Below the pieces are notes generated by a model. It had not been told where the DNA came from, ran no database searches, and saw nothing but the letters and a program-made list of their open reading frames with translations. Made by a program: the position numbers and the translations under genes. From positions 1 to 34,468 of the forward strand of contig CALMVT010000561.1 of NCBI GenBank assembly GCA_937873175.1: a stretch of 34,468 nt of DNA, written 5' to 3'. Source of the DNA: an uncultured Acetobacteraceae bacterium. GTDB taxonomy: Bacteria > Pseudomonadota > Alphaproteobacteria > Acetobacterales > Acetobacteraceae. Of this stretch, positions 13,362 to 26,185 are shown in pieces. Every line of letters starts with the position of its first letter. Position 1 is the first letter of the stretch.

Positions 13362-13504
13362 GATAGGGGCTGCATAGGCCGCATGAACTTTGCGGGCAAC
13401 CTCGGCCTGCGTGTTTGTGACGCGCGGCCTTGCCATGGATGGCTTACAAGATGTAACGCTTCCGCCATTTGTTTTCCTCATCCCGGAAAGTCTCAGCGAC
13501 TGTG
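13362..13504. promoter_or_regulatory. Divergent metX / chorismate mutase control region
   Basis: About 143 nt separate the chosen starts. An AT-rich pocket around 13440-13485 holds the palindrome TTACAAGATGTAA (13444..13456) and is the likely site of divergent promoters. I looked for the SAM-II riboswitch common upstream of alphaproteobacterial metX genes and did not recognise its conserved core. Confidence 0.45.
13444..13456. promoter_or_regulatory. TTACA-N3-TGTAA palindrome
   Basis: TTACA (13444..13448) and TGTAA (13452..13456) are perfect inverted repeats around AGA in the metX/chorismate mutase intergenic region. It could be a repressor operator. It is short enough to be chance. Confidence 0.3.
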
Positions 13505-14383
13505 ATGTCCAGTCCGTCCCAAACACAGCCGGCCGCGCCGGCCAAGATGCCCGACCTTGTTTCGCTGCGGGCTGAGCTGGACCGGTTGGACGACACGCTC
13601 CACAACACGCTGATGCGCCGGGCGGAGGTGGTGAAGCAGGTGGCGGCGCTGCGGGTAAAAGGCCCCGTGCCGCTGCGGCCGGGACGGGAAGCCGCCATTA
13701 TCCGGCGCTTGCTGGCCCGGCATGACGGCGGGTTGCCGGCGTTCGGCATCGTGCGCATTTGGCGCGAACTGCTCGGCACCACGACGGCGCAGCAGCATCC
13801 CCTGGTGGTCAGCGTGTGCGAAGCCGGGGGCGACCCGGCGTTCCTGGCCCTGGCGCGGGAGCACTTCGGGGCGCTGACCCCGATGCGCCCGCATCGCAGC
13901 CCGGCCGAGGCACTTGCAGACATACGCGCCGGGCGGGCGACCGTGGCCGTGCTGCCGATGCCGGCGCAAGGCGAGGCAGCGTCCGATGCGTGGTGGACCG
14001 CGCTGCTGCACCCCGGCGATCCACGGGTGCACATCGTCGCCCGCCTGCCGTTCTGGGCACCGCGTCCAGAGGGAACGCCCGCCATGCAAGGGTTGGTGGT
14101 CAGCGCCGCGGCGCCGGACCCGAGCGGCCAGGATCGCTCGCTGCTGAGCTTGAAGCTGGCGGATGCTGACCGTGCGCGGCTGGACGCCGCTTTGGCTGCG
14201 GCCGGGTTTCATGTCGGGCCGGTGATCGTGCGGCACGGCGCTGACGGTTCGGCCGCCCGCGCGCTGGCGGAGGTCGAGGGGTTCGTCGGCGATGGCGACC
14301 CGCGGCTGCCGGCGCTGCGCGGGACGGAGTGCCTGCCCATGGTGCTGGGCGCCTACGCGGTGCCGGTTGGGGGAGAAATCTGA
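13505..14383 (+). CDS. Chorismate mutase with degenerate prephenate dehydratase- and ACT-like regions
   Basis: A 292-residue protein. Residues 16-92 are an AroQ-type chorismate mutase domain: [23 protein letters not shown], with R22, R39 and the R61-E62 pair matching active-site positions of the E. coli P-protein mutase. This domain converts chorismate to prephenate. Residues 98-200 resemble the two-lobed prephenate dehydratase fold ([21 protein letters not shown], then ATVAVLPMP), but no TRF motif is present. Residues 212-285 ([10 protein letters not shown] to [16 protein letters not shown]) look ACT-like. So this is probably a P-protein relative that kept the mutase and lost the dehydratase. 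The ATG at 13505 is chosen because the mutase alignment begins shortly after. Its stop overlaps the hisC ATG by one base (TGATG). Confidence 0.85.
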
Positions 14384-15480
14384 TGGGTCCGCAGCCGCGG
14401 GAGGGCATCCTCGGCATCGCGCCGTATGTGGGTGGCGAAAGCAAGGTGGCCGGACAGAACCGGACGATCATCCTTTCCTACAATGAGGGCGCGTTCGGCG
14501 TGCCGCCCGGCGCGCGTGCGGCCTATGCTGCAGCGGCGGGGGAGCTGCACCGTTATCCCGATGGCGGCGCGGAGGACCTGCGCTGGGCCATCGGCGCGCG
14601 GTTTGGGCTTGATCCCGCGCAGATCGTTTGCGGCGCCGGGTCCGACGACCTGATCTATCAACTGTGCCTGGCGTATGGCGGACCGGGCACCGAGCTGATC
14701 ATGAGCCGCCACGGGTTCAGCGTTTACGAGATCGCCGGTTCCTATGCCGGCTGCCGGGTCATCAAGACCCCGGAACGGCAGTTGACGGCCGACGTGGACG
14801 CGATGCTGGCGGCAGTGTCTGCGGCCACGCGGCTGGTGTTCCTGGCCAATCCGAACAACCCGACGGGCAGCCTGCTGCCGCAAGGGGAGGTCGAGCGGCT
14901 GCGGGCCGGGCTGCCGACCGATGTGCTGCTGGTATTGGATGCCGCTTATGCCGAGTACGTGGACCGTCCCGATTTCGACGCGGGCGCGCGTTTGGTGGAT
15001 GCGGGCGACAACACGGTGATGACCCGCACCTTCAGTAAGATCTTCGGCCTGGGCGGCCTGCGGCTGGGCTGGTGCTATGCGCCACCCGGGATCGTCGATG
15101 TGCTGAACCGAGTGCGCAGCCCGTTCAACGTGAGTCTCGCGGCGCAGGCGGCGGGAATTGCGGCGCTCGCCGAACCCGGCTGGGTCGAGGCGAGCCGCGC
15201 CCACAACACCCGCACCCGCGGCTGGCTTGCGGCGGAACTGGAGCGGAGCGGGGTCCGGGTTTGGCCGAGCGAGGGCAATTTCCTTCTGGCGGACTTCGGC
15301 AAGCCCGAGAAGGCCGGCGCCGCCCACGCCGCGTTGAAGGCGCGCGGGGTGATCGTACGGATGGTGGCGGGCTACGGCCTGCCGCAGTGCCTTCGCATCA
15401 CCATTGGCACGGCCGAGGAGTGCGCCACCGTGGCCGACATCGTGTCGGGGTTCATGGCGGCGCAGACGGCGCATGCCTGA
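14383..15480 (+). CDS. hisC: Histidinol-phosphate / aromatic aminotransferase (HisC type)
   Basis: A 365-residue fold-type I PLP aminotransferase of the HisC family. Visible features are [12 protein letters not shown] near the N-terminus, [15 protein letters not shown], the PLP-contact motif [19 protein letters not shown], the Schiff-base Lys in [15 protein letters not shown] and the substrate-carboxylate Arg near LRITIGT. Such enzymes transaminate imidazole-acetol phosphate and often phenylpyruvate, 4-hydroxyphenylpyruvate or prephenate. Its position between chorismate mutase and tyrA favours an aromatic role, which is inferred. Starts on the last base of the preceding stop and overlaps tyrA by 8 bases. 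Confidence 0.9.
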
Positions 15481-16399
15481 GCATGGATCAGGGCGGCAAA
15501 GGCCGGTGTTCCAGCGCCTGACGCTGATCGGCGCCGGGCTGATTGGCAGTTCCATCGCGCGGGTGGCGCGGGAACGGCGGGATTTGGCGGCGGAGGTGGT
15601 CGTGACCGACCGCAGCGCCGCGGTACTGGACCGGGTTGCGGCGCTGGGCTTTGCCGACCGGATCGAGCCTGACACGGCGCGCGCTGCCGTCGGGGCGGAC
15701 TGCGTGATGCTGTGCGCGCCGGTCGGCACCTATGCCGCGATTGCCGCGGCCGTTGCGCCGCACTTAGCGCCATGCGCCATCGTCACGGACGTGGGGAGCA
15801 CCAAGGTGTCGGTTATCCGCGACGTGGGGCCGCTGCTGCCGCCGGATGTGCATTTCGTGCCGGCGCATCCTTTGGCAGGCACTGAGTACTCCGGCCCGGA
15901 TGCAGGGTTCAGCACGCTGTTCGAGGGCCGCTGGTGCCTGCTCACGCCGCCTGATGGCACCAGCCCGGCGGCGACCGAGCGGGTGGCCGAATTTTGGCGC
16001 CGGGCCGGCAGCATGGTTGAGTTGATGGAAGCGGTGCACCATGATCGCGTGGTGGCTGTCGTGAGCCATTTGCCGCACCTGATTGCATTCACCATCTGCA
16101 GCACCGCCGACGACCTGGCGACCGAAGGGGAAAGCGCTGCGGCCAGCCGGTCAGAGGTATTGAAGTTTGCTGCGTCCGGGTTCCGCGATTTCACCCGCAT
16201 CGCGTCGAGCGATCCCGTGATGTGGCGCGACGTGTTCCTGAACAACCGGGAAGCGTTGCTGGAAATGCTGGCGCGTTTCACCGAAGATACGCAGGCGATG
16301 GCCCGGGCTGTCCGCTGGGGTGATGCGGCCTACATCGAGGACCGTATCGGCCGCGGCCGCCAGATCCGGCGGGGGCTTATTGAGGCGAAGCAGGCGTGA
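15473..16399 (+). CDS. tyrA: Prephenate / cyclohexadienyl (arogenate) dehydrogenase
   Basis: A 308-residue TyrA-family enzyme that oxidatively decarboxylates prephenate or arogenate towards tyrosine. The Rossmann motif [17 protein letters not shown] lies near residues 15-31. [19 protein letters not shown] and [14 protein letters not shown] carry conserved catalytic and substrate residues, and [19 protein letters not shown] is a TyrA hallmark. ATG at 15473 gives an 8-base overlap with hisC; a GTG at 15506 is an alternative that trims 11 residues before the Rossmann fold. The stop overlaps the next gene (GTGA). No ACT domain is present, so feedback control must be elsewhere. Confidence 0.92.
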
Positions 16400-17007
16400 C
16401 GTCAGAGCTTGAAGCGCTTTGGGATTGGCGCCGTCGGGTTGCCCAGCTTTATGCGTCCATCCGGGCTGAGCCTGACCCACAGCGTGGCTGGATGCGCTGG
16501 CGAGCCGTGCGCGACGGGTTGTTCCGGGATCACCCGCAAAGCCCAATCGAGCCAGGGGTGAGGTTCGAGGGCCTAAGCGTGTTTCCGTATGATCCCGCGT
16601 TGGTGTTTCACGTGAAACACTCGGCCATCACAGACGCACCTGTCGAGACGTTCCAAGCTGGCGCTGACGGGCAAGTCAGCATGCAGCCGTTCGCACGCAC
16701 CCAGGGCCTGCAATCCATGCTGGGCAGCGAACTCACCCTGTATTGGCTGCTGGGCTACGGCGGCGGCGTGTTCCTGCCCTTCGCAGATGCTACCAGCGGC
16801 CGGGAAACCTACGGTGCCGGGCGTTACCTGCTCGACACCATCAAGGGAGCCGATCTCGGCAGCACGCCCGACGGACGGACGGTTCTGGACTTCAACTTCG
16901 CCTACAACCCATCCTGCGCCTACTCGCCGCGCTACTTGTGCCCACTCGCACCTCAAGGAAACCACCTGCCGCTGCCCGTCAGGGCTGGAGAACGTGCTCC
17001 GGCATAA
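16396..17007 (+). CDS. DUF1684 family protein
   Basis: A 203-residue protein with the DUF1684 signature near its C-terminus, FNFAYNPSCAYSPRYLCPLA then NHLPLPVRAGE, and the earlier block LYWLLGYGGGVFLPFADATS. Function is not established for the family. The GTG start at 16396 overlaps the tyrA stop (GTGA), so it ends the aromatic operon. Residues 70-75 (VFHVKH) are encoded by a perfect parS sequence, described separately. Its last 29 bases overlap the end of the convergent MATE gene. Confidence 0.85.
   Translation: MTSELEALWDWRRRVAQLYASIRAEPDPQRGWMRWRAVRDGLFRDHPQSPIEPGVRFEGLSVFPYDPALVFHVKHSAITDAPVETFQAGADGQVSMQPFARTQGLQSMLGSELTLYWLLGYGGGVFLPFADATSGRETYGAGRYLLDTIKGADLGSTPDGRTVLDFNFAYNPSCAYSPRYLCPLAPQGNHLPLPVRAGERAPA
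16604..16619. other. parS: parS centromere-like ParB-binding site
   Basis: TGTTTCACGTGAAACA is a perfect 16-bp palindrome identical to the consensus parS of chromosomal ParABS systems. It lies wholly inside the DUF1684 gene, codons 70-75. By established knowledge parS sites cluster near the replication origin and nucleate ParB spreading for chromosome segregation. A random perfect match is very unlikely in a window of this size. Confidence 0.88.
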
Positions 17008-18370
17008 GGCGCGTGCGCCGCAGGAAACGCCAAGTCAGCAGTATCGCCACGCCGATCAGGCCCGCGGCCAAGCCCCACCACGCCCCTTCTATGCCCCAGC
17101 CGGCGCGCAACGTCAGAAACCAGGCTGCCGGAAAGCCGACGCCCCAATAAGCCATAGCCGCGAGAACAAACGGCATATGCGTGTCCCCCAGCCCACGCAA
17201 CGCACCGCCGGCTACGCACTGCACACCGTCCGCCACCTGGAACACGACCACGACGCTCAGCAACCCGGTCGCAAGGGCAAAAGCCTCCGCGCTGCCCGGT
17301 GACGCCGGGTCGAGGTAAAGGCCGACCACGGCGCCCGGCGCCCCAAGCAGCAGCAACGCCGCCATGACCTCGAACGCCGCGCCCAGGCCGATGGCGACCA
17401 GCCCCGCCCGGCGCGCGCCGGGCTTGTCGCCCGCGCCGACGCAATGGCCGACCCGGACGTTCGCCGCCTGCGCAATCGCGAGAGGCACCATGAACGCGAC
17501 GGACAGGATGTTCAAAGCGACCTGCTGCGCCGCCAAAGGCACCGGGCCCAACCGTCCGATCAGCAGCGCTACGGCGAGGAACAGCCCGGTCTCCACGGCG
17601 AAGGTCGCGCTGACCGGAATACCGAGCCGCAGCATGGCGCCAAGCAGGTGAAGATGGAGGCCACGCCACGCGACGAAACGCCGCAACCCCGGGCGGCCAT
17701 GCAGCGACACCAGCAGGACAATAGCCCCCACAGTCAGCGACACCACCGTGGCCAGCGCCGGCCCGCGCAGCCCAAGCGCGGGCAAGCCCCAAGCTCCATG
17801 GACAAAGCCGTAGCAAAGCGCGCCGTTGACCACGGCGGAGGCAAGGGAAACCCATAGCACCATCCCGCCGCGGTCGATGGCCGGCAGAAAGGCACGCATC
17901 AGGCCCATTCCCAGCAACGCGCCGGGCGTTGCCCAGCGCAGCGTCCCTACGAAAACACCGGCGTCGTGCGCCAATACCTTCGGCTCGCCCACTGCCAGCA
18001 ACAGCGGCTCAGCCACGCTGAACAACACGAAGCCGGGCACGACAAGCAGCAGCGCCAGCAGCACGCCGGTCCAGTACAGGCCAGGTACCTGCGCATCGCG
18101 CCCGGCCCCGCGCGCCTGGGAAACCAGCACGGCCAGCGCCGTCATCACGCCTTGCAGCACCACGCAGACCGTGATGAACAAAGTCTCGCCCAGGCCGCCC
18201 GCGGCCAGCGCGTCGCCCCCCAAGCTGCCCAGCATCACCGCGTCGGTGATGCCCATCGCCATCTGCGCCAGTTGCGCAATGGCCAGCGGGCTGGCCAGGC
18301 GCATCGTGTCAGCCGCATGATAGATGAAAGTGGCGGCGCGTCCGCGCGGCAAAAGGCCGGTGCCGTCCAA
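16979..18370 (-). CDS. MATE family efflux transporter
   Basis: A 463-residue, about 12-helix exporter of the MATE (NorM/DinF) family, which extrudes cationic drugs or metabolites using Na+ or H+. The first helices read LASPLAIAQLAQMAMGITDAV then MLGSLGGDALAAGGLG, and the second half begins GIPVSATFAVETGLFLAVAL, giving the expected internal duplication. The C-terminus is Arg-rich. The start is TTG at 18370, supported by AAAGGAAA (18384..18377) six bases upstream. The 3' end overlaps the convergent DUF1684 gene by 29 bases. Substrate unknown. Confidence 0.92.
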   Translation of the reverse strand: MDGTGLLPRGRAATFIYHAADTMRLASPLAIAQLAQMAMGITDAVMLGSLGGDALAAGGLGETLFITVCVVLQGVMTALAVLVSQARGAGRDAQVPGLYWTGVLLALLLVVPGFVLFSVAEPLLLAVGEPKVLAHDAGVFVGTLRWATPGALLGMGLMRAFLPAIDRGGMVLWVSLASAVVNGALCYGFVHGAWGLPALGLRGPALATVVSLTVGAIVLLVSLHGRPGLRRFVAWRGLHLHLLGAMLRLGIPVSATFAVETGLFLAVALLIGRLGPVPLAAQQVALNILSVAFMVPLAIAQAANVRVGHCVGAGDKPGARRAGLVAIGLGAAFEVMAALLLLGAPGAVVGLYLDPASPGSAEAFALATGLLSVVVVFQVADGVQCVAGGALRGLGDTHMPFVLAAMAYWGVGFPAAWFLTLRAGWGIEGAWWGLAAGLIGVAILLTWRFLRRTRLMPEHVLQP

Positions 18371-19913: not shown

Positions 19914-20636
19914 TCAGATCGTAAGCGTGCCGGCGCGCGCCCGGTCATACCGGGCCGCAACGGCGTCCCAGTTCACGACATTCCACCACGCCGCCAGGTA
20001 GTCCGCCCGGCGGTTCCGGTATTTCAGGTAATAAGCGTGCTCCCACACGTCGTTGCCCAGCAGCACCTGGCTCCCGTCCATCAACGGGGTGTCCTGATTG
20101 GCGCGCGCGGCCAGGCCCAGCTTGCCCGAAGGTTCCACCGTCACGAACACCCATCCCGAGCCGAACTGGCTCAAACCCATGCGGTTGAACGCCGTCCGCA
20201 TCGCCTCCATGCCGCCCAGGTCGCGGATCACCGCCGCCAGCAAGGCCCCGGAGGGCTGGCCGCCACGCCCGCCCATCAACTGCCAGAACATGGCATGGTT
20301 GGCGTGGCCGCCGCCGTTGTTGCGCACCGTCGCGCGCACGGCCTCCGGCAGCTCGCCCAACCGCGCCAGCGTTTCATGCAGCGGCCTGTTGCCCAAAGCA
20401 GGGTTGTCCTTTGCCGCGCCGTTCAGCGCCGCCACGTAGGCAGCATGGTGCTTGTCGTGGTGCAGCAGCATGGTTTCCGCGTCAATATGCGGCTCGTTGG
20501 CCTCCGGTGCGTAGGGCAGCGGCAGCAGCGTGAACGCACCCGGCGCCGCACCGGATGCGGCCTGGCCCAAGGCGCGCGGGGCCGCCATCGTCGCGAGGCC
20601 GGCGGCGCCAAGAACGGCGCGGCGTGTTGTCGTCAT
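19914..20636 (-). CDS. Exported Mn-type superoxide dismutase
   Basis: A 240-residue Fe/Mn SOD family enzyme converting superoxide to peroxide and O2. Metal ligands are H59 (LLHHDKHH), H114 (GGHANHAMFW), D196 and H200 (GNDVWEHAYYLKY). The Gly-Gly-His context and the gate Gln181 in ANQDTPL are Mn-type. Unusually it begins MTTTRRAVLGAAGLATMAAP, a twin-arginine-like signal peptide with AxA-type cleavage near ALGQA, so it is probably a periplasmic enzyme. Its ATG overlaps the yejF stop (ATGA), placing it at the end of the yej operon. Metal use is inferred from sequence. Confidence 0.92.
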   Translation of the reverse strand: MTTTRRAVLGAAGLATMAAPRALGQAASGAAPGAFTLLPLPYAPEANEPHIDAETMLLHHDKHHAAYVAALNGAAKDNPALGNRPLHETLARLGELPEAVRATVRNNGGGHANHAMFWQLMGGRGGQPSGALLAAVIRDLGGMEAMRTAFNRMGLSQFGSGWVFVTVEPSGKLGLAARANQDTPLMDGSQVLLGNDVWEHAYYLKYRNRRADYLAAWWNVVNWDAVAARYDRARAGTLTI

Positions 20637-22228
20637 CGGGCCTCCTCCGTTTCTGAGATTTCGTGGGACGGCGCGGGGAATGCCGCCGCCATCAGGGCCA
20701 TAGTATAAGGGTCGCGCGGGCTGGCAAACAGTGCATCCGCCGGGCCTTCCTCCACCACGCGCCCGGCGCGTAGCACGGCGACGCGATGCGCCAGCGCGCG
20801 AACCACGGCCAGGTCATGGCTGATGAACAGGTAGGCCAGGCCGTGCCGGGCCTGCAGCGTCCGCAGCAGGTCCACGATCTGCGCCTGCACGGAACGGTCC
20901 AGCGCGCTGGTCGGCTCGTCCAGCACGAGGAGGCGCGGGGTCAGCACGACGGCCCGGGCAATGGCGACGCGCTGGCGCTGGCCGCCGCTGAACTCGTGCG
21001 GGTAGCGCCCCGCCGCGTCGGCGGGCAGCCCCACCTCCTGCAGCGCCGCCGCGACCCGCGCCTCACGCTCGCGCCGCCCCAGCCGAGGCTCGTGCACGCG
21101 CAGGCCCTCGGCCACGATCTCCCCCATGCTCATGCGCGGCGACAGGCTGCCGTAGGGGTCCTGGAACACGATCTGCATGGCCCGGCGCAGCGGGCGCAGT
21201 CGGGACTGCGGCAGCGCCGAGATGTCCTGCCCAGCGAACGCCACCCGGCCCGTCGCCGCCTGCATCCGCAGCAGCGCCAGCCCGATCGTGCTCTTGCCGG
21301 ACCCGCTTTCCCCCACCAGGCCCAGCGTTTCCCCTTCCCGGATGTGCAGGCTCACCCCGTCCACCGCGCGCACCTCGCCCACCACCCGGCGCAGCAGGCC
21401 GCGGCGGACCGGGAACACGACGCGCAGCCCCTCGGCCTCCGCAAGCACGGGCGCCCCGGCCGACACCGGGGCGGGCTGCCCGCTCGGCTCCGCGTCGATC
21501 AGCATGCGGGTATAGGGATGCCGCGGCGCGCGGAACACTTGGGCCACCTGCCCGGTCTCGACGATGCGCCCGTCCTTCATCACGCAAACCCGGTCGGCGA
21601 CGCGCCGCACCACGTTCAGGTCATGGCTGATCAGCAGCAACGCCAGCCCGCGCGCCGCCTTTTCCCGCGCCAAAAGGTCCAGGATGCCGGCCTGGATCGT
21701 GACATCCAGCGCCGTCGTCGGCTCGTCGGCAATCAGCAGCTTCGGGTTGTTCGCCAGCGCCATGGCGATCATCACCCGCTGCCGCTGCCCACCGCTGAGC
21801 TGGTGCGGAAAAGCTTGCAGCCGGGCCTCCGCATCGGGGAAGCCCACGCGCCGCAGCAGCCCGGCGACGGCGCCGTGGGCGGGCTTGCGGCCATGCAACG
21901 CCATCGCCTCCGCCACCTGGCGGCCGACGCTGTGCAGCGGGTTCAGGCTGGTCATCGGCTCCTGGAACACGATCCCGGCCGTGTCGCCGCGCACGGCCTG
22001 CAACGCCGCGGGCGGGGCGTCCAGCATGGATTGCCCATCCAGCGCAACGGCACCCGTGCAGCCCGCCCCCGGCGGCAGAAGCTGCAGGATCGACAGCGCG
22101 GTCAGCGACTTGCCGGACCCGCTTTCCCCGACCAGCGCCAAGGTCTCGCCTTGGCTGAGGGTGAAGCTCACCCCGTCCACCACCCGCCGCGGGCCGAACG
22201 CCACCGACAGGTCCCGCACGTTCAGCAT
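20633..22228 (-). CDS. yejF: Peptide ABC transporter, fused dual ATP-binding protein
   Basis: A 531-residue protein with two oligopeptide-type ABC ATPase domains. Domain 1 has Walker A GESGSGKSLTALS, signature LSGGQRQRVMIAMAL and LLIADEPTTALD. Domain 2 (from about residue 275) has [28 protein letters not shown] and [12 protein letters not shown]. Both sites look catalytically intact. It powers YejBE peptide import. Start ATG at 22228 overlaps the yejE stop by one base, and the stop overlaps the sod start by four. Confidence 0.95.
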   Translation of the reverse strand: MLNVRDLSVAFGPRRVVDGVSFTLSQGETLALVGESGSGKSLTALSILQLLPPGAGCTGAVALDGQSMLDAPPAALQAVRGDTAGIVFQEPMTSLNPLHSVGRQVAEAMALHGRKPAHGAVAGLLRRVGFPDAEARLQAFPHQLSGGQRQRVMIAMALANNPKLLIADEPTTALDVTIQAGILDLLAREKAARGLALLLISHDLNVVRRVADRVCVMKDGRIVETGQVAQVFRAPRHPYTRMLIDAEPSGQPAPVSAGAPVLAEAEGLRVVFPVRRGLLRRVVGEVRAVDGVSLHIREGETLGLVGESGSGKSTIGLALLRMQAATGRVAFAGQDISALPQSRLRPLRRAMQIVFQDPYGSLSPRMSMGEIVAEGLRVHEPRLGRREREARVAAALQEVGLPADAAGRYPHEFSGGQRQRVAIARAVVLTPRLLVLDEPTSALDRSVQAQIVDLLRTLQARHGLAYLFISHDLAVVRALAHRVAVLRAGRVVEEGPADALFASPRDPYTMALMAAAFPAPSHEISETEEAR

Positions 22229-23262
22229 TACGGCTGCTTGCGCGGGTCAAAGGCGTCGCGCACCGCCTCGCCGATGAAGATCAAGAGCGTCAGCACCCCG
22301 CCGAGCACGACGAACGCCGTCATGCCGAGCCAGGGCGCCTGCAGGTTGTTCTTGCCCTGTGCCACCAGCTCGCCCAGCGACGGCGAGCCGGGCGGCAGGC
22401 CGAAGCCGAGGAAATCCAGGCTCGCCAGCACCGTGACCGAGCCGGACAAGGTGAACGGCAGGAAGCTCAGCGTCGCCACCAGCGCATTCGGCAGGATGTG
22501 CCGCGCCATGATGGCCCCGTTCGACACCCCCAGCGCCTGCGCCGCCCGCACGTAGTCGAGGTTGCGCCCGCGCAGGAACTCCGCCCGCACCACGCCCGTC
22601 AGCGCCATCCAAGAAAACAGCAGCAGGAACACCAGCAAGGTCCAGAAGGTCGGCGTCACGATGCTGCCGAGGATGATCAGCAGGTAAAGCTGCGGCATCC
22701 CGGACCAGACCTCGATGAACCGCTGGAACAGCAGATCGGTCAGCCCGCCGTAGAAGCCCTGCACCGCCCCAGCCGCGATGCCGACCACGGAGGACACGGC
22801 CGTCAGCGTGAAGCCGAACAGCACCGACAGCCGGAACCCGTAAATCACCCGGGCCAGCACGTCCCGCGCCTGGTCGTCGGTGCCCAGCAGGTTGCGGAGG
22901 GACGGGGGCGCCGGGGCGGGGACGGGCAGGTTCTTGATCACCGTGTCATAGCGGAACGGGATGGCGGGCCAGAGCATCCAGCCATGCGCGTTGATCGCGG
23001 CGGCAAGCTGCGGGTCGGTGTAGTCGGCCTCCGTCGGCAGGAAGTCGTCGCCGAACGTGTCCTCGCTGTAGTCGCGCAGCACCGGCGCGTAGAACTGGTC
23101 GTTGAAGCGGATCAGCAGCGGGCGGTCGTTGGCCAGGAACTCGGCAGACAGGCACAGCACGAACAGCGCGGTGAAGATCGCCAGCGACCACGCGCCACGG
23201 CGGTGCGCGCGGAAGATCGCGAGCCGCCGCCGGGTGATGGGCGCCATGGTCATGGTCGTCAC
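22228..23262 (-). CDS. yejE: Peptide ABC transporter permease
   Basis: A 344-residue DppC/YejE-type permease. An N-terminal TM ([20 protein letters not shown]) is followed by a ~100-residue periplasmic loop characteristic of YejE, including [20 protein letters not shown]. The five-helix core follows, with the EAA-like loop [20 protein letters not shown]. The GTG start at 23262 overlaps the yejB stop (GTGA); ATGs at 23253 and 23247 are alternatives just inside. Partner of YejB. Confidence 0.94.
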
Positions 23263-24320
23263 CGCCGAGCCTCAAAGTCGATGCGGGGATCGACGGCGGT
23301 GTAAAGCAGGTCGCCCACGATCTGCAGCACCAGGCCGAACAGCGTGAAGATATACAGCGTGCCGAACATCACGGGGTAATCGCGGCGGATCGCGCTCTCG
23401 AACCCCAAGAGGCCCAGCCCGTCCAAGGAGAACACGATCTCCACCAGCAGCGCCGAGCTGAACAGGATGCCGATGAACGCCGCGGGGAACCCGGCCACGA
23501 TCAGCAGCATGGCGTTGCGGAACACATGGCCATACAGCACCCGCTGCTCCCCCGCCCCCTTGGCCCGCGCGGTCACGACGTACTGCTTGCGGATTTCGTC
23601 GAGAAAGCAGTTCTTGGTCAGAATCGTCAGCCCGGCGAACCCGCCCGCGACCAGCGCCACCGTCGGCAGCACCATGTGCCAGGCATAATCTGCCACCCGC
23701 GCCGGCCACGACCATTCCCCCGACCCGGCGCTGGTCAACCCGCGCAACGGAAAAATCTGCAAAAAGCTGCCGCCCGCGAACAGCACGACGAGCAGGATCG
23801 CGAACAGGAAGCCCGGCACCGCGTAGCCCACCAGCACCACCGCGCTGCTCGCCACGTCGAACCGACTGCCGTCCCGCACCGCCTTCTTGATGCCGAGCGG
23901 GATGCTGACGAGGTAGATCAGCAGGGTGGACCACAGGCCCAAGGAGATGCTGACCGGCATCTTCTGCCCAATCAGCGCCACCACCGTCTGGTCCCGGAAG
24001 AAGCTGCGCCCGAAGTCGAAGCTGAGATAGCCGCCCAGCATGGACAGGAACCGCTCGCCCGCCGGCTTGTCGAAGCCGAACTGCCGCTTCAGCTCCTCGA
24101 TCTGCTTGGCGTCCAGCCCGCGCGCGCCGCGATACGCGCCGTTGTCGCTGGTCGCGCCGGTGATGCGCGCCGTCGCGTCGCCGCCGCGCCCGCGGGTTTC
24201 CGCGATGGCCTGCTCCACCGGCCCGCCCGGCGCGAACTGCACCACGGCGAAGTTGATGGCGATGATGCCCAGCAGCGTGGGCAGCAACAGCAGCAGCCGG
24301 CGCAGCAGGTAGTTCGCCAA
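23259..24320 (-). CDS. yejB: Peptide ABC transporter permease
   Basis: A 353-residue DppB/YejB-type permease. I chose the TTG at 24320 because it gives the standard N-terminus [20 protein letters not shown] and lies 2 nt after the yejA stop; an ATG upstream would run deep into yejA. The periplasmic loop has [20 protein letters not shown], and [15 protein letters not shown] is conserved. The EAA-like loop is [19 protein letters not shown]. With YejE it forms the inner-membrane channel. Confidence 0.93.
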
Positions 24321-24322
24321 TC

Positions 24323-26185
24323 TTAATTCACCGGCTTGCGCGCCGTGTCGGCCCGGGCAGACAGGTTCGGGTCGATCCACCAACTGTCCAGCACGAAGCC
24401 GTCACGGATCGGCTGAGTCGGCCGGCCGAAGCGGTTCCAGGTCGCGACGTTGAACCGCTCATTGTGCCAGTTCGGCACCATGAACCAGCCGCGCAGCAGC
24501 ACCCGGTCCAACGCCCGCCCGGCGGTGGCCAGCGTTTCGCGATCCTGCGCCGCGATGGCCTTCTCGATCAGCGCGTCCACCGCCGGGTCGCAAACGCCGG
24601 CCAGGTTGCTGCCGCCCGGCGTCTTGGCGCCGATGCAGGAGAACTCGTCCCGCAGCTCGTTCCCCGGCAGGTCGGACCCCGGGTAGATCATCGTCGTCAT
24701 GTCGAAGTCGTAGTCGTCGGTCAGCCGCTCGAACTGCGCGCTGTCCACGGTGCGGATGCCGACCTCGATGCCGAGGCGCTGCAGCCATTGCTGGTAGGGC
24801 AGTGCCACCCGTTCCAGGCTGGGATCGCTGAGCAGGATGGTGAAGGCCATCTGCTTGCCGCTGCCATCCACCAGCTTGCGGTCCTTGATGGTCCACCCGG
24901 CCTCCTTGAGCAGCGCCAAGGCCCGGCGCAGGCCCTCGCGGTTGTTGCCGGAAGCGTCGGTCTCGGGCATCCGGAACGGCTCGGCGAACAGCGCGGGCGG
25001 CAGCTTGTCGCGGAACGGCGCCAGGAGCGCCTGCTCCGCCGCGTCCGGCAGGCCCGTCGATTCCTGCGCCGTGTTGCCGAAGTAGCTGTGGGTGCGGTTG
25101 TAGGTGCCGAAGAACAGGTTCTTGTTCATCCACTCGAAATCGAACACCTGGGCCATCGCTTCCCGCACGCGCGGGTCGGCGAACATCGGGCGGCGCGTGT
25201 TCATGGAGAAACCCTGGATGCCGACCGGCAGGCGATGCGCGATCTCGTCCCGGCGCACCAGCCCGTCACGCACGGCGGGGAAGTCGTAGCCGGTCGCCCA
25301 TTCCTTCGAGATGTTCTCCTGCCGGTAGTCGATCTGCCCGGCCTTGAACGCCTGCATCGCCACAGTGGGGTCGCGGAAATACTCGATCCGCACCCGGTCG
25401 AAATTGTGGAACCCGCGGCCCGTGGGCCGGTCCCGCGCCCACCAGTTGGGATCGCGCGCATAGGTCACGCTGCGGCCCAACTCGAACTTCTCCACGCGAT
25501 ACGGCCCGCTGCCCAGGGGCGGCTCGGTCAGCGGCTTGGTGAAGTCGCGGGTGGACCACCACTTCTCCGACAGCACCGGCATGCTGCCGACCGCCAACGG
25601 CAGGTCGCGGTTCCCGTTCGATTTGAAATGGAACACCACCCGGCGCTCGCTTTCCGCCACCGCGTCCTGCACGTCGGCATAGGACACGCGGATGGAGGGG
25701 CGGCCCTTCTCCATCAGCGTGTTGAACGTCCAGGCCACGTCCCGTGCGGTCACGGGCGTGCCGTCGGCGAAGCGCGCCTCGGGCCGCAGCTCAAAGCCGA
25801 TCCACATGCGGTCGGCGGGCATCTCAACCGTTTCGGCAAGGTGGCCGTAGCCGGTCGCCACCTCGTCCGCCGAGCCGACCAGCAGGGTTTCCCACACATG
25901 GCCGCCTGCCGCCCCGGCGCCGGTGCCGCCAACGCCGGGCTGCCAGGTTGCCCCGGTGCCAATGGCGGCGTTGCCTCGCAGGATGTAGGGGTTGAAGCCG
26001 TCAAAGCTGCCGACCATCGCGAACACCGCCTCGCCCCCCTTGGGCGCGTCCGGATTCACGTAGGGGAAGTGGGGGAAATCCGGCGGCAGGGCGGGGGTAC
26101 CAAGAATGGTGATGGCGTGGCTGCGCGTCACCTGCGCCTGTGCGGGCAAGGCAAGCAGCAGCAAGAACAGCAAGCAGCGCAGCAT
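24323..26185 (-). CDS. yejA: Peptide ABC transporter periplasmic binding protein
   Basis: A 620-residue family 5 solute-binding protein. The signal peptide is [18 protein letters not shown]. The mature N-terminus [20 protein letters not shown] then PDAPKGG is a YejA hallmark, as are [12 protein letters not shown] and the C-terminal [18 protein letters not shown]. By family knowledge YejABEF imports oligopeptides, including microcin C-like and formylated peptides, and affects sensitivity to antimicrobial peptides. GGAGG lies just before the ATG. It follows hisN by 53 nt. Confidence 0.95.

Follow-up and report, generated by a model that had tools for sequence, protein, structure and literature searches.

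ParB is known from other bacteria as a CTP-dependent clamp that spreads from parS. In the ParABS systems of Caulobacter, Bacillus and Pseudomonas, parS is a 16-bp palindrome, TGTTTCACGTGAAACA, which we take to be the textbook consensus. The same palindrome was present in the window analyzed here, a stretch of 34,468 nucleotides that forms the entire contig C561 of an Acetobacteraceae assembly (G000; 624 contigs, 6.39 Mb). This locus resembled those systems in having a ParB of the R173/G201 type, and it may likewise lie on the origin side; it differed from them in that the genome held one perfect copy, lying off the contig with parA and parB. According to the available part of a previous report, parS1 of Corynebacterium glutamicum lies inside trpCF and is the furthest from oriC of ten copies (PMC7083940). 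It offers a similar case of parS within an amino-acid biosynthesis gene; in that part of the report it is accompanied by nine further sites, whereas the in-gene site studied here was the best match of its genome and lay in a DUF1684 gene downstream of tyrC. Furthermore, the parS found at the start of rsmG (gidB) in the same family likewise falls within a coding frame, where it can encode the same pair of peptides, VSRET or FHVK(H/Q). Outside the genus, 20 of the 23 family genomes examined had this rsmG site (0–2 mismatches); the DUF1684 site was confined to the genus in these comparisons.

The window was scanned for parS at up to three mismatches. A single match was obtained, TGTTTCACGTGAAACA at 16604–16619, with 0 mismatches, and matches at the same threshold occurred in 3 of 100 dinucleotide shuffles of the window. 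An earlier note on this DNA had claimed a perfect parS at these coordinates, agreeing at 16 of 16 positions and lying in frame in codons 70–75 of the DUF1684 gene. Both points were confirmed. The DUF1684 gene (16396–17007, plus strand; PF07920 over cut-off, E 6e-38) starts with GTG and encodes 203 aa, and its codons 70–75 (GTG, TTT, CAC, GTG, AAA and CAC) were translated as VFHVKH; the palindromic site itself was assigned no strand. Base composition gave an expectation of 8.2e-5 perfect sites per 6.39 Mb and 4.4e-7 per window. When the parS copies of the genome were listed, as the note had proposed, the window site was the sole perfect one, and two further sites had 2 mismatches each (C43:58–73 and C345:9365–9380). 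In addition, the ParB-linked sites of family genomes agreed with TGTTTCACGTGAAACA as the parS consensus.

The partition genes were also searched for. The window contig C561 gave no ParB, RsmG or ParA match, and these genes, which the note had suggested as a check, were located instead on C345, a separate contig of the same assembly. Six ParB-like matches were found in the genome. The best of them, over the family cut-off, was on C345, and this ParB was called chromosomal because it stood beside a ParA-type protein (below NCBIfam cut-offs) and RsmG (over cut-off). It aligned with PDB 6t1f, a ParB presumably from Caulobacter, at E 3e-59, with the identical stretch GKSRSHVANTMRLL plus AGHAR. By motif spacing, its specificity positions were R173, T179, G184 and G201, which is the RXXG pattern. 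In the available part of a previous study, R173 and G201 are described as invariant among ParB proteins, the parS-specific starting point has a pattern like this RXXG, and Noc uses Q173 and R201 to read NBS, which has its own bases at two variable positions (PMC7383237). Judged by these positions, the C345 ParB has parS-type reading residues, not Noc-type ones. The site was likewise not an NBS, being parS at all 16 positions, with R and G at the specificity residues of the ParB. Moreover, the rsmG frame on C345 contained a parS with two mismatches, which reads CGTTCCACGTGAAACA on the strand of rsmG and encodes VPRET.

A site at ≤1 mismatch was present in 49 of 60 family genomes, G000 included. 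The rsmG starts of 23 family genomes from other genera were compared; 15 had been selected for having parS, and of the 8 others five had no site at ≤1 mismatch. G015 was also searched and gave no rsmG match. Among the 20 starts with a site of 0–2 mismatches, 12 were perfect, and the remaining three starts had 3 mismatches (G005, the palindromic variant CGCTTCACGTGAAGCA), 4 (G010) and 8 (G030). With putative start codons, the rsmG-frame peptide was V(S/P)RET in 15 of the 20 and (F/L)HVK(H/Q) in 5. It is thus common in this family for parS to lie within a coding frame or at its start, and in-frame placement is ordinary. What is unusual is the gene, not the coding placement, as the better copy is now in DUF1684. 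Additional sites away from parB were found in relatives, for instance in G004 and G031 at about 67–151 kb, and TGTTCCACGTGAAACA adjoined parB in G008 and G031.

Other variation was observed at the rsmG start. Paired changes keeping the inner palindrome gave TGCTTCACGTGAAGCA in G021 (L167) and the above CGCTTCACGTGAAGCA in G005 (L163), which perhaps reflects a ParB of shifted preference, and the start in G010 (L164) read CGCTTCACGTGGAGCA. In genus g103, all three loci examined (L187, L190 and L189) lacked a site at ≤3 mismatches around rsmG; rsmG and parB were on separate contigs in G105 and G177, and G145 gave no match in the ParA or the ParB search. G033 also gave no ParA or ParB match. It was not counted as a parAB loss because its 3.4 kb contig breaks off at rsmG.

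Within the genus, the DUF1684 site at the same codons had 0 mismatches in G000 and G003, 1 in G002 and 4 in G001, and the rsmG site had two in each of the first three genomes and four in G001. Both G002 and G003 possessed parA, and G003 also possessed parB; the G002 contig ends just after parA. The DUF1684 site was kept in these relatives with a Par system, which are two members of one genus. Among 78 non-genus DUF1684 loci, drawn from the best 80 of 560 homologue loci in named genomes, none had a parS at ≤2 mismatches, and parS as a general DUF1684 feature was rejected. The comparison gives good support to the DUF1684 site as a genuine, genus-specific chromosomal parS.

The fourth genome, G001, differed in its partition genes. 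Its contig C151 matched C345 on both flanks (L182:1516–3222), and holA was followed by rsmG, with ends 15 bp apart, at the spot where G000 holds parB-parA. The absence was read from a single contig of 9.2 kb in a metagenome assembly; elsewhere in this 97%-complete genome no close ParA or ParB was found, with relatives of 35% and 38% on C438. A genome scan of G001 gave no site at ≤1 mismatch and no NGTTYCACGTGRAACN. At its rsmG site, two synonymous changes (CGT to CGC and GAA to GAG) kept VPRET and broke parS. At its DUF1684 site, codon 70 was GTA (still V) and codons 74–75 encoded A and L, the L at codon 75 being the usual residue among family homologues. The decay at both sites in a genome without parAB suggests that the DUF1684 site works, as such decay would be expected if ParB had been what maintained both. 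In a tree of five concatenated proteins, G001 was the first branch in the genus (split support 73) and is probably the earliest-branching member. It is therefore possible that a full parS never existed at its DUF1684 site and that the DUF1684 parS was gained after the G001 split. The core TTTCACGTG was common to all four genomes and used the rarer codon TTT (23 TTT vs. 82 TTC in the 11 genes counted), and this shared core leans towards an older common site. A search for MipZ did not single out G001, since the family model matched ParA-type relatives in 7 of 7 genomes and 14 of 14 controls. No high-scoring MipZ match was obtained in G000–G003 or G013 (best 46 bits or less; G002 and G003 incomplete), and high-scoring ones were obtained in G020 (342 bits) and G138 (290 bits). 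The genus may be without MipZ, and in that case ParB could be less strictly required.

The constraint on the protein was compared with that on the DNA by aligning 78 outgroup DUF1684 homologues from the best 80 of 560 loci in named genomes, with the genus loci L001, L008, L009, L059 and L060 dropped. Among these best-scoring homologues, position 70 was R in 67 of 78, compared with V in the genus; position 75 was L in 42 of 78; and H72 occurred in only 3 of 78. Within the genus, H75 was found only in the two perfect-site genomes. The outgroup DNA from the same 80 best loci was at least 6 mismatches from parS, and at least 9 in 71 of 78 (gaps counted as mismatches). According to this alignment, the DUF1684 residues differ from the usual family ones at positions where parS requires a change (R70 to V and L75 to H). 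The parS-less DUF1684 proteins L061 and L066 contained RFHVG written with other codons, so FHV was available before parS and part of the match predates it. Codons 70–74 were identical in three genomes. The chance of five identical codons was 0.451^5, about 0.02 (0.019), at the per-codon rate of DUF1684 itself and 0.19 at the 11-gene rate (putative ORF starts), and an equally long run of identical codons occurred elsewhere in DUF1684, at codon 125. The identity of codons 70–74 is only suggestive of a DNA-level constraint.

These results bear on three points of the earlier note. The homologue alignment that it proposed as a check on DNA-level conservation showed V70 in the genus against the prevailing outgroup R70, and H75 in the two perfect-site genomes against the commonest outgroup L75, with codon identity that was moderate. 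The view that the gene is under dual selection remains plausible, and codon odds of about 0.02 or 0.19 lend it little weight. Furthermore, the protein does carry VFHVKH, which the note held that it must tolerate. This is less special than supposed, as the rsmG frame of G020 carries the same peptide; one of the three parS frames holds TGA, and any in-gene parS consequently reads (V/L/M)FHVK(H/Q) or xVSRET.

We consider it very likely that these 16 bp function as a chromosomal parS loaded with ParB, as a genus-level addition to the usual rsmG parS. The chromosomal ParB encoded on C345 would load at the DUF1684 parS and spread over the neighboring DNA as a CTP-dependent clamp, and the spread ParB would let ParA and SMC segregate and fold that part of the chromosome. 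It seems improbable, by comparison, that the needs of the DUF1684 protein preserve the VFHVKH codons, with the parS match playing no role. Such a coincidence would agree with the FHV of the parS-less L061 and L066 and with codon conservation just moderately above the gene's own rate, but it accounts poorly for the rarity of H72 and the prevalence of R70 among the outgroup homologues, for their large mismatch numbers against 0, 0, 1 and 4 in the genus, and for a perfect match expected at about 1e-4 per genome. A more serious alternative is that ParB binds the DUF1684 copy while segregation depends on the rsmG site next to parAB, so that the DUF1684 copy is dispensable or acts mainly in local gene control or SMC loading. 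This is possible, and we would put it clearly short of an even chance; it overlaps the preferred reading of a working parS because that reading leaves the relative strength of the two sites open. The family parS is commonly beside parAB, G004 and G031 have their extra sites at a distance from parB, and one parS of a four-site cluster suffices in Pseudomonas aeruginosa according to the available part of the report (PMC4368675). On the other hand, the DUF1684 site was the better match in G000, G003 and G002, each of which had two mismatches at rsmG. Given these mismatches, ParB probably loads at the DUF1684 copy no less well than at the rsmG copy. The two-mismatch rsmG site may still work, because G008 and G031 have TGTTCCACGTGAAACA beside parB. 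We infer the binding, spreading and relative strength of the DUF1684 parS from sequence.

It was also considered whether the window lies elsewhere than on the chromosome, with the site serving a plasmid-type ParB. Five more ParB-like matches were present on other contigs of G000, three of them over the family cut-off, which would allow this, but their loci (L034–L038, 2.3–3.5 kb each) had no site at ≤3 mismatches, and the site sequence was that of the sites beside rsmG-linked parAB. Moreover, tyrC and the chromosomal-type parB shared a single contig in ten relatives, and a secondary replicon is very unlikely. In this comparison tyrC served as the marker for origin distance. It was found in 146 of 150 family genomes and ParB in 147 of 150 (G000 and G001 included). 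Both were on one contig in 35, less than 330 kb apart in 24 and further in 11 by linear distance; some of the longer distances may shorten around the circle, and broken assemblies bias same-contig pairs to short ones. In the ten single-contig relatives (7 genera, not independent), the tyrC–parB distance was 86–562 kb, all within about one third of the half circle if circular. The eleventh single-contig genome, G031, gave no tyrC match, and in G005, outside the 150-genome sample, the two genes were about 6 kb apart on one contig. By these distances tyrC and parAB share one side of the chromosome across the family, and we infer by analogy that the window may be no more than a few hundred kb away from the origin. 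The earlier placement of the window near the origin has indirect support from the distances in the ten relatives. GC skew had mixed signs in both the window and C345 and did not place the origin.

The DUF1684 site is a real and probably functional chromosomal parS, and ordinary in kind. A bolder proposal is that, within the genus, the main ParB loading site shifted from rsmG to DUF1684, reshaping a usually conserved protein stretch (R70 to V and L75 to H), and that G001 represents a naturally occurring parAB deletion whose two centromere sites have decayed. We put this forward tentatively, as slightly less probable than its opposite. If true, G001 would be a ready-made comparison for the bases that ParB keeps under selection. 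The main value of the locus is as a case of centromere turnover, in which a parS would arise in a new gene from codons half provided by the protein. In addition, the sister genome that lacks parA-parB allows constraint on the DNA to be told apart from constraint on the protein at the two sites.

The site gene stands at the end of an amino-acid biosynthesis run, as had been noted, with DUF1684 following hisC and tyrC. All members of the run are on the plus strand: a chorismate-mutase-like protein with a putative start (u13469; 13469–14383; TIGR01807 domain, E 1e-14, below cut-off), a hisC-type aminotransferase (14329–15480; TIGR01141 over cut-off) and tyrC, a prephenate/arogenate dehydrogenase (15404–16399; NF005694 over cut-off), the 3' end of which overlaps DUF1684 by 4 nt. 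DUF1684 adjoined tyrC in 4 of 4 genus members, compared with none of the 16 tyrC loci retrieved from outside the genus, and the run from u13469 to tyrC was found in 11 of those 16. A 33%-identical tyrC relative lay near DUF1684 in 2 of 78 outgroup loci (L124 and L136), so the nearness of the two genes is not wholly genus-specific. A convergent MATE efflux gene (16979–18370, minus strand; TIGR00797 over cut-off) overlaps the DUF1684 end. The distance of about 390 nt from the site to a convergent gene end, as given previously, corresponds to the stop of DUF1684 itself (388 nt), and the MATE stop is 360 nt away. Further along the window, at 19914–26185 on the minus strand, a dipeptide/oligopeptide-type ABC transporter gene set lies beside a superoxide dismutase gene.
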